From the NCBI RefSeq assembly GCF_000807775.2, contig NZ_CP047385.1, forward strand, positions 2,170,001 to 2,234,000: a stretch of 64,000 bases of DNA. The letters are read 5' to 3'. Shown in pieces: positions 1-39,553 of this stretch. Under the pieces are notes generated by a model, which saw nothing but the letters and a program-made list of their open reading frames with translations, did not search any database and had not been told where the DNA came from. Source of the DNA: Pandoraea fibrosis. Its GTDB lineage: Bacteria; Pseudomonadota; Gammaproteobacteria; Burkholderiales; Burkholderiaceae. The position numbers and the translations under genes are program-made. Position 1 is the stretch's first letter; every line of letters starts with the position of its first letter.

Positions 1-935
<935 letters not shown>

Positions 936-1078
936 CTATAACCAGTGTGTTTTCCCTGGTTTGAGTGACGTGTGTGCCCCAATGGCGCTGATACGCTCAC
1001 AACCCAATTACATGTAGTACTACGCTTCTTCTGAATTGGTTTTGTTGCACGCCTAGTGCAGCAAGACATACAAGTTAT

Positions 1079-1192
1079 GCCTGATGACCATAGCGAGTTG
1101 GAACCACCCCTTCCCATCCCGAACAGGACCGTGAAACGACTCCACGCCGATGATAGTGCGGATACCCGTGTGAAAGTAGGTAATCGTCAGGC
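1079..1192 (+). rRNA. rrf: 5S ribosomal RNA
   Basis: A complete 5S rRNA of about 114 nt. It starts GCCTGATGACC and ends GGTAATCGTCAGGC, so the two ends pair as the terminal helix. The internal stretch with CCCATCCCGAACAGG and the CGATGATAGTG segment are the usual 5S loops. It follows the 23S gene by about 140 nt with no tRNA between them, and it is the last gene of the rRNA operon. Confidence 0.96.
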
Positions 1193-37160: not shown

Positions 37161-37528
37161 GGATCGGACAGATCGGACAGGTAAAACGGACGTCATCGCA
37201 AGTGATTGCCGGAGGTATTTTTCCCTCGATTGTACCGGCTCCATGTGACGTTCCCATCTCCGGGCATGGAATCACCGATCAGGTGGGCAAGCCTGCGGGC
37301 CCCGGTGGGCCGCGGGCAAAGGCGCCGCTGGGAGGCTTGCCGCACGATTCGAAGGGGGATCTGGTTTGAAAAACCTGGACGGAAATGAAGGTTAGTGTTT
37401 CAGCGCGGAAATCTCTTTTCGAGGGTTGGCGATGAAGCGCAAACAGTACTCAGTCAGACGCCCCCAAGGGTTGGCGCTATGTCCAGTTATTGGGGGCAGT
37501 TCAAAGAATGCCTTTCTGATACGTCTCC
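37161..37528. other. Intergenic region at the left edge of the AT-rich island
   Basis: About 370 nt with no accepted gene. A short frame at 37432 begins MKRKQYSV, like the start of IS3-family transposase OrfA, but diverges at once. A hairpin with 8-bp arms GCCCCCAA/TTGGGGGC (37460-37467 with 37490-37497) lies past the end of the minus-strand Pro-rich gene and has no U-tract. Confidence 0.45.
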
Positions 37529-37930
37529 CTAGGCCCCTGGGGCACCCGGAGGGTAGGGAGGCGGAGGGGGGTAGGGAGGTGGAGGCGGGCGAGGGGATGA
37601 GGCTTCACTGTAGCGGTAGCCGTCCGCGGACGCACCGATAGCGCTGTAATGGGCGTTTTGGAGGTCGTATATCAATTTCGCATAAAAATGTGCTGACTCC
37701 TCCGAATCCGCTACCGCCTCGCTCGCTTTGTCCAATAGATTCTGTGCGGCTGTATTCTTAAGAGACGTGGTGCTGTTAGTACACGCCATCACATCAAGTG
37801 CTTCACGCACAGAGGCGTTGTTGAGCATTTCGCAAAGAAGAGAATCGTAATCTTTGGGTACATTCTCCTTTTTCACGACGGTTGTTTCGTAGGTTACAAA
37901 CCTATTGCCAATAGGGGGAATTAGAGACAT
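37529..37930 (-). CDS. Unknown protein with tyrosine-spaced polyproline tail; possible hydroxylase substrate
   Basis: A 133-residue protein of no family I recognise. I chose the ATG at 37930, with GAGGAAAG upstream, over a TTG at 37957. Residues 20-100 look helical and soluble (DYDSLLCEMLNNASVREALD, then SAHFYAKLIYDLQNAHY), with no signal peptide. Residues 113-133 form a striking tail: PRPPPPPY, PPPPPY, then PPGAPGA, two near-identical proline blocks each closed by Tyr and ending in a collagen-like GAPGA. The gene overlaps the end of the prolyl 4-hydroxylase gene by 29 nt, so the two are translationally coupled. The tail is an obvious candidate substrate for that enzyme; this is inference. 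Confidence 0.75.
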   Translation of the reverse strand: MSLIPPIGNRFVTYETTVVKKENVPKDYDSLLCEMLNNASVREALDVMACTNSTTSLKNTAAQNLLDKASEAVADSEESAHFYAKLIYDLQNAHYSAIGASADGYRYSEASSPRPPPPPYPPPPPYPPGAPGA

Positions 37931-38597
37931 TAGCTTCGCTTTCCTCAGATTTTCCAACAGTTAACCATTTTGTCGCCACCCATTTGGATCCCGTGATTAC
38001 CGGGGATCCGCCATGGAGCGTTCGCTTCGATTGATGTGTGTCAGGGTTAGGGTAAACAAAAAAAATGCCACTTCCCCGTCGAGGAAAAATCTCCAGAGGC
38101 ATCATCGGAAATATGGTGCCCCCACCGCAATCTGCTTCCTTGAGGTATATAACGAGAGTCGCTATGCGTTGGGCACGATTAGCGGGCGCCTTGCGAGAGG
38201 CGGTGTCAAAAAAATCATAGTGAGGCATGTACTGCTCGCCAGCTTTGTAACGAAGAATTTGCAGATCCTCCATCTGCTCAATTGGCCAATTGAGCAGCTT
38301 CGCTATCCGTTCGTCGAGCTTGCTGACTAGCTTGCAACTGTCTCCAGACAGAAAGACTCCATGACTGGTTCGCCTCTCGTCGACGTATCCATGAGGGCTT
38401 CCATCAGCCACTCTTGATCTTTCCAAGCGTTGAGATGCCATATCAATCAACGAACAGCACTCATCCTGATCCAGAATATTCTCCATAACTACTATTTCAG
38501 GATAGGTTGAGCGTGCAGCGATCTTTATTTTCAGATCATCAACTTCAATATGCGACGGCGAGTCTCTTAAGTTTGGTCCCGGTAGATTGAGTTTCAT
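37902..38597 (-). CDS. Prolyl 4-hydroxylase-type 2-oxoglutarate/Fe(II) dioxygenase
   Basis: A 231-residue dioxygenase. Iron ligands are His126 and Asp128 (PHYDFFD) and His195 (LHGGSPV), with the 2-oxoglutarate Lys205 (GSKWVATKW), all at P4H spacing. RRTSHGVFLSG and LQILRYKAGEQYMPHYD are also P4H-like, rather than AlkB- or PhyH-like. It would hydroxylate peptidyl proline using O2 and 2-oxoglutarate in the cytoplasm. AAAGGA abuts the ATG with almost no spacing, an odd ribosome site. Base composition is clearly AT-richer than the flanks. Downstream and overlapping lies the Pro-rich protein gene. The alternative known bacterial target is EF-Tu. Confidence 0.9.
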   Translation of the reverse strand: MKLNLPGPNLRDSPSHIEVDDLKIKIAARSTYPEIVVMENILDQDECCSLIDMASQRLERSRVADGSPHGYVDERRTSHGVFLSGDSCKLVSKLDERIAKLLNWPIEQMEDLQILRYKAGEQYMPHYDFFDTASRKAPANRAQRIATLVIYLKEADCGGGTIFPMMPLEIFPRRGSGIFFVYPNPDTHQSKRTLHGGSPVITGSKWVATKWLTVGKSEESEANVSNSPYWQ

Positions 38598-38674
38598 TCC
38601 TTTATAACTTATGTGGCGTCAATGGATATTCGTTGAATTGCCCTGACGTCTTGCGGTTAATTGATCTGTGATTT

Positions 38675-38709
38675 TTTATATTGTTAGTGATGCGAACTAA
38701 GATTGTCAA
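38675..38709 (-). promoter_or_regulatory. Possible promoter of the hydroxylase gene
   Basis: A consensus -35 TTGACA is present on the minus strand (38709-38704). AT-rich sequence follows at the right distance, but the -10 (TAACAA or TATAAA, depending on spacing) is weak. It is about 110 nt before the hydroxylase start. Confidence 0.35.
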
Positions 38710-38758
38710 GGGTGTGTTTAGACGTCTGCTTCCTGGATATTTTGAAATGTTTGTGGCC

Positions 38759-39268
38759 CTAAAGTCCGGAGGTTGGTATTGACTCGCGCCATGACGAAAA
38801 TCTATCGAGTGAAAAATAAGAATATTCCGACATACATTTCAAAAAAGTCGAAATAATTGGGCCTGTTGGTCGTTTATATTTAAAGGCCAATAACATTCCC
38901 TCGAATGGCGTAACCCCGGACTTCTCCCGAACAGGCAAACCCAAGAACAGCCCGTTTATCGAATCATCTAATGGCAATTTCCAGGATGAGTGCCTGAACG
39001 CGCACCGGTTCTTGTCATTGACGATGCGCGCGACAAGATCGAGTACTGGCGACAGGATTGCAGCGATTTCAGACCGCATGGCTCGCCAGGCACTCTGACC
39101 CCGTGCGAGTTTCGATGCGCACCCCTTGACGCCTGAAATCTCCCCCCAAAGTGCTCGATTAATTTTCACTTGGGCGCGTCTCGTACCCGCATCGCGGGCA
39201 GGCCACGCGTGGCGGCTCAACTCGATGCGTACGAACGTGCGTTTCGCCGCTTCCGCACTGCTTGCCAT
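38759..39268 (-). CDS. Unknown protein, doubtful
   Basis: A 169-codon frame with no recognised family. The second half (SPVLDLVARIVNDKNRCAFRHSSWKLPLDDSINGLFLGLPVREKSG) reads like a genuine folded protein and is AT-richer, while the N-terminal 60 residues are Arg/Ala-rich and look like read-through noise. A start at an internal Met near residue 64 is possible. It is upstream of the hydroxylase gene on the same strand. It could be a relic of transferred DNA. Confidence 0.3.
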   Translation of the reverse strand: MASSAEAAKRTFVRIELSRHAWPARDAGTRRAQVKINRALWGEISGVKGCASKLARGQSAWRAMRSEIAAILSPVLDLVARIVNDKNRCAFRHSSWKLPLDDSINGLFLGLPVREKSGVTPFEGMLLAFKYKRPTGPIISTFLKCMSEYSYFSLDRFSSWRESIPTSGL

Positions 39269-39553
39269 CGTTCACGAGAGCGAGCAAAAACCCACCTAGC
39301 ACACGGTTTTGTATGGGGTATGGCCAGATACCCACAGCGATTCACTGCACAAATTTCGTGCATGTTCGTCGCTTCGACCGTAGTCAACGTGGGTATGCCC
39401 ATCAGGGTTTAGAGCCGCGTTTTCCCTGTATGTTATTGATTTCATATGGGTTTTTGCGGCCGTTCAACTGGCGGGTGCAAAGTTGGGTGAACAAAGTTCT
39501 GAATTCAGTGAGTCTCGACAGAGGGAGATGCGTATAAGGGAAAACCCCGCGTC

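Follow-up and report, generated by a model that had tools for sequence, protein, structure and literature searches.

Does a prolyl 4-hydroxylase (P4H) encoded in Pandoraea fibrosis modify the protein of the gene that overlaps it? In a stretch of 64,000 nucleotides of this genome (contig NZ_CP047385.1, positions 2,170,001 to 2,234,000 of the forward strand, hereafter the window), the P4H gene is followed by a gene whose product ends in proline blocks spaced by tyrosines. It was originally predicted that the two form an enzyme-substrate pair within a dedicated modification system. To our knowledge, bacterial prolyl hydroxylases have few known protein targets. The features of the locus are the following.

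About 37251-39528, no strand: low-GC segment carrying the pair (GC content and comparison with relatives)
37529-37930, minus strand: partner gene, 133 aa, with a predicted helical body (residues about 1-105) and a Pro/Tyr tail (ORF and predicted structure)
37529-37594, minus strand: tail DNA including the stop codon, encoding PRPPPPPYPPPPPYPPGAPGA, with a C run between the two repeats (sequence)
37902-37930, minus strand: 29-nt overlap of the P4H and partner genes, with the partner ATG at 37930 within the last P4H codons, behind a GAGGA-type ribosome site (by eye)
37902-38597, minus strand: prolyl 4-hydroxylase, 231 aa, a 2OG-Fe(II) oxygenase (PF13640, E 7.6e-14)
38820-39095, plus strand: degenerate transposase fragment (rve_3; PF13683, E 3.9e-8) in the segment, between P4H and groES

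The hydroxylase, its partner and their island

The full P4H iron/2-oxoglutarate set that had been assigned to the enzyme (H126, D128, H195 and K205) is present and conserved. Across 55 aligned sequences both histidines are invariant and the other two residues at least 90% conserved, and all four align with residues of the Bacillus anthracis P4H, so that the HxD...H iron site and the 2OG-binding lysine of the class are in place. The class fold, a 2OG-Fe(II) domain with a double-stranded beta-helix, was found both by PF13640 and in the AlphaFold model (pTM 0.85), the best PDB matches of which are structures of the B. anthracis P4H (5hv0, 3itq and 5v7y; best Foldseek E 2.3e-21, 34-39% identity in the first 13 matches). 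A profile of five close relatives had the same enzyme as its top match (E 2.8e-51), which makes it the closest solved relative, followed by Chlamydomonas P4H-1 (2jig, also 3gze; 5.6e-34) and the chlorella virus P4H (5c5t; 1.6e-28), which are related enzymes but of eukaryotic or viral origin. The B. anthracis P4H belongs to the same family and carries the same H/D/H/K set as the window P4H. We know of no operonic Pro-tail partner for it, nor of a coupled partner for the Chlamydomonas or chlorella virus enzymes. According to an excerpt of a review, the B. anthracis P4H hydroxylates (PPG)n peptides (PMC8968730), and Chlamydomonas P4H-1 was solved with a (Ser-Pro)5 peptide, as stated in the title of the PDB entry.

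Directly upstream of the window P4H, its strand is free of ORFs of 60 aa or more as far as 38759. Downstream, the 29-nt overlap with the partner gene was recovered on recomputation. The partner belongs to no family in Pfam, PHROG or NCBIfam (best E 0.18, 0.052 and 0.067, respectively). Its predicted structure, of modest confidence, is a small helical bundle followed by a tail of low confidence, and a PDB fold search with this model (pTM 0.51) returned nothing below E 1. The proline-block tail with tyrosine spacing is as originally described, the protein ending in PRPPPPPYPPPPPYPPGAPGA. Its supposed likeness to collagen fails by eye, since Gly-X-Y runs are limited to PPGAPGA in the window tail and missing from that of Pandoraea pulmonicola; that to extensin holds for the Pro/Tyr spacing but not for Ser-Pro4, which neither tail contains. 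The tandem PPPY arrangement is rare. Of the 3122 stop-to-stop ORFs with 60 or more aa in the window and 61 loci (342 kb), two had it, both adjoining this P4H.

The pair had also been placed in an AT-richer and possibly transferred island; the first point is confirmed and the second supported. The low-GC segment of about 2.28 kb that is home to it (about 37251-39528) stands out by composition, since the GC content between 38 and 39 kb is 45.7%, versus about 64% for the bulk of the window, and third-position GC is 0.47 for the P4H and 0.54 for the partner body compared with 0.79 for groEL. Two genomes that are among the nearest relatives on groESL (G002 and G009) have 87-106 bp between the same flanks, a lipoprotein gene and the groES block, where the window has about 2.28 kb. 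Together with the transposase remnant, these observations support horizontal gain of the unit. The right edge of the island is uncertain because its last ~370 bp are also found in G006, G023 and G020, which align to the window from about 39161 onward; G014 aligns from 39414, and the P4H is absent from all four.

The region upstream of groES (about 37251-39538 in the window) varies among Pandoraea genomes (L043, L046, L053 and L060), by the ORFs as judged by eye, with the lipoprotein gene in two relatives and transposase-like or other ORFs elsewhere; it looks like a variable insertion site. At the start of the window, positions 1-937 (plus strand) are the end of a 23S rRNA gene and 1080-1192 (plus strand) a 5S rRNA gene, and the ORFs listed there are spurious.

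Recurrence in Pandoraea pulmonicola and size of the partner family

The P4H was found in 2 of 32 Pandoraea genomes, those of the window and of P. pulmonicola, and the partner in the same two. Since the other 30 have no match at E 0.001, the P4H is an accessory gene. On a groESL tree built from 30 of the 32 genomes, the two species do not group as sisters. Between them the P4Hs are 73% identical, whereas the partner bodies share only 25% identity. The bodies are homologous nevertheless: their Smith-Waterman score of 85 compares with a mean of 28.4 (SD 5.25) and a maximum of 61 in 2000 shuffles, and lies 10.8 SD above that mean. The P4H is under purifying selection, with dN 0.16 and dS 1.07 over 217 codons against the intact P. 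pulmonicola copy (dN/dS about 0.15).

P. pulmonicola carries two copies of the pair about 4 kb apart and in opposite orientation. The P4H of one copy lacks its N-terminal part, including the HxD residues, next to an intact partner gene (P0122, 142 aa). The other copy shows the opposite, a complete P4H (234 aa) followed by a decayed remnant of the partner gene, so that the genome retains one intact version of each gene. By eye, the partner start codon and ribosome site lie at the homologous place in the last P4H codons of both species, with an overlap of 8 nt in P. pulmonicola versus 29 nt in the window. P0122 ends in HPPPPPYPDPPPYPNPPPYPDPPPYPSSGRAVVKSSD, with four tandem PPPY repeats, and the tandem PPPY tails of the two species are encoded by different codons. 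Given bodies that are 25% identical, P4Hs that are 73% identical and a tandem tail in both, the partner evolves fast while its tail stays. In P. pulmonicola, an additional 96-aa ORF without a Pfam family (L005 11806-12096, plus strand) extends into the beginning of the intact P4H gene.

Partner homologues occurring without a P4H would have spoken against the pairing, and none was seen among these 32 genomes or in the family, where the partner body was found in 2 of 398 genomes, always immediately 3' of a P4H copy. On whether the tail can be lost while the P4H persists, the outcome is mixed: in P. pulmonicola the tail of the intact partner is retained and lengthened, but the other copy combines a complete P4H with a decayed partner gene, and a further partner relative, P0001, which may or may not adjoin a P4H, runs out of frame. 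P0001 matches 92% of the query at 95% identity; after the first repeat it leaves the tail frame and loses the second, its C-terminus corresponding to the next reading frame of the window after a change in the length of the C run. This is either loss of the tail, a slippage switch resembling phase variation, or an assembly error.

The partner family found thus amounts to three proteins, from two genomes and one contig of 9,085 bases; two of the three came from a search of 5.8 billion, in which a match needs shared 5-residue words. When the window partner served as sole query it retrieved only itself in 61 genomes and missed the P. pulmonicola homologue, so how firmly the partner can be called absent elsewhere depends on the searches. 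A search with the tail alone in 32 genomes gave its own tail (E 3.9e-7) and two others (E 0.23 and 0.37), a weak result that missed the real P. pulmonicola tail. An ORF with a PPY-PPY tail was found within about 1.5 kb of none of 28 loci of more distant P4Hs (E 3.6e-52 to 1.5e-48), these being the best-scoring loci in a family in which 141 of 398 genomes have a P4H match at E 1e-30; three of the 28 have a nearby Pro-rich ORF (9 or more Pro in 15 residues), and a PPY pair occurs in none of these. A P4H scan of GTDB contigs yielded no confirmed relative, and says little, as it used few peptide patterns and may leave out the window genome and its near kin. Viral contigs contained no confirmed relative of either protein. 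In the open-licence literature no operon of a P4H and a proline-tail protein appeared in titles or the starts of abstracts among the matches listed.

Other origins were considered and set aside. For a plasmid, there was no DNA match and the partner protein had no plasmid match; for a phage or plasmid source of the P4H, the 12 phage and 17 plasmid records were all below 60% identity. For anti-phage defence, a generic CRISPR-associated 2OG model matches the P4H (E 8.8e-18) and none matches the partner.

The two genes could also be chance neighbours in a decaying mobile island, with a tail that is a by-product of a C-rich repeat. The transposase remnant, the low GC content, the decayed P. pulmonicola copies and the out-of-frame tail of P0001 all fit such an origin, but gene order, overlap and tail are alike in two non-sister species, the tail codons differ and the P4H dN/dS is low. 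We regard this explanation as already disfavoured and very improbable: the pairing is not a matter of chance.

A type III secretion system in the same genomes

One type III secretion system (T3SS), together with its chaperone, was found in 2 of the 32 Pandoraea genomes, the two that also carry the pair.

L077 1-13500 (= G000:C1 about 4403000-4416500; also L005 and L079): SPI-1-like T3SS

Its SctV is 92% and its CesT chaperone 79% identical between the two, while SctV-like matches in other genomes of the genus reach at most 49% identity. The systems are collinear, with 85% DNA identity over 13.5 kb and an SPI-1-type secretin. Leaving phylogeny aside, the odds that two genomes out of 32 would match exactly are 1 in 496; the agreement was spotted post hoc. 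The P. pulmonicola copy with the intact P4H has a CesT-type chaperone gene about 2.7 kb away, an SctU-type gene 4.7 kb away and flagellar genes on the opposite side; the window genome has 95 bp at the site where P. pulmonicola has this copy within 2.46 kb, and its T3SS is 2.2 Mb from the pair. A 426-aa neighbour in P. pulmonicola shows a weak link (E 0.003) to a 547-aa protein near the T3SS of the window genome.

From this genomic association the partner is perhaps a type III effector, and the tail then lends itself to another use. Every repeat is a PPxY motif, two in the window and four in P. pulmonicola, and the tail may be a eukaryote-like PPxY array on an effector, i.e. a ligand for WW domains of the kind found in NEDD4-type ubiquitin ligases, with the P4H being a second effector or acting elsewhere and hydroxylation of the tail absent or incidental. 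Neither the T3SS link nor the PPxY nature of PPPPPY had entered the original prediction. Besides the motif itself, the co-occurrence with the T3SS and, in P. pulmonicola, the closeness to its genes and the chaperone favour this view, as does a known T3SS effector, Salmonella SteD, which hijacks NEDD4-family ligases through PPxY-WW contacts (PMC7342019 and PMC12720080, in excerpt). SteD differs in that it uses the PPxY of a host adaptor and the C2 domain of the ligase, and the excerpt of PMC12720080 mentions no hydroxylase. The PPxY-ligand view leaves unexplained why the gene stands behind a P4H in all three copies, and secretion of the partner is suggested by association. The N-terminus of the P. 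pulmonicola partner moreover has an acidic residue at position 3, which is unusual for one described class of type III signals. We consider the view unlikely, though worth keeping in mind.

The probable target of the hydroxylase

A housekeeping protein such as EF-Tu could instead be the target, the Pro-tail gene being an unrelated hitchhiker. Such a target is conceivable because PDB entry 5v7y bears the title 'Prolyl 4-Hydroxylase Interacts with and Modifies Elongation Factor Tu', according to which the B. anthracis P4H modifies EF-Tu. The Pseudomonas hydroxylase PPHD likewise acts on EF-Tu, according to an excerpt of PMC5701443, and is in this respect comparable as a bacterial prolyl hydroxylase with a protein target; it is more distant in fold (4iw3; E 1.9e-8, TM 0.54, 16% identity), and its target is a housekeeping one. 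EF-Tu was the sole protein target of bacterial prolyl hydroxylases met in the literature passages and titles at hand. Against such a target, 30 of 32 genomes of the genus lack a match to this enzyme at E 0.001, and the partner travels with it in both genomes that have it, starting at the same codon. We judge a housekeeping target improbable.

The reading that we prefer, tentatively and with a confidence somewhat short of even, is that the two genes form an enzyme-partner module, gained horizontally, whose P4H hydroxylates the tail of its partner. The recurrence of the pair in a more distant relative with the same rare T3SS suggests that the P4H may modify this tail. The module would consist of a P4H of the B. 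anthracis type and a small, fast-evolving and presumably helical protein whose C-terminus carries tandem (P3-5)Y repeats and whose translation would be coupled to that of the P4H in front of it. Within this module the P4H would most likely hydroxylate tail prolines, a Pro-rich stretch being the kind of peptide that the enzyme class takes, and the modified partner would probably have a host-directed role tied to the SPI-1-like T3SS. Against the module weigh the frame change in P0001, a family of three proteins, a T3SS 2.2 Mb away in the window genome and the alternative use of the tail as a PPxY ligand. The module and the PPxY-ligand view may overlap, since a hydroxylated PPxY tail would join both. 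In its most specific form, to which we give quite a low probability, the P4H would be a dedicated enzyme, dependent on oxygen and 2-oxoglutarate, that hydroxylates the tandem PPxY repeats of a type III effector translated together with it, and hydroxyproline would tune the choice of host WW-domain proteins that this effector binds.

A P4H with a conserved, overlapping, proline-tailed partner is a directly testable candidate enzyme-substrate pair. The link to one T3SS would connect proline hydroxylation with host-directed secretion and, if true, would reveal a secretion effector that is modified beforehand by its own prolyl hydroxylase.
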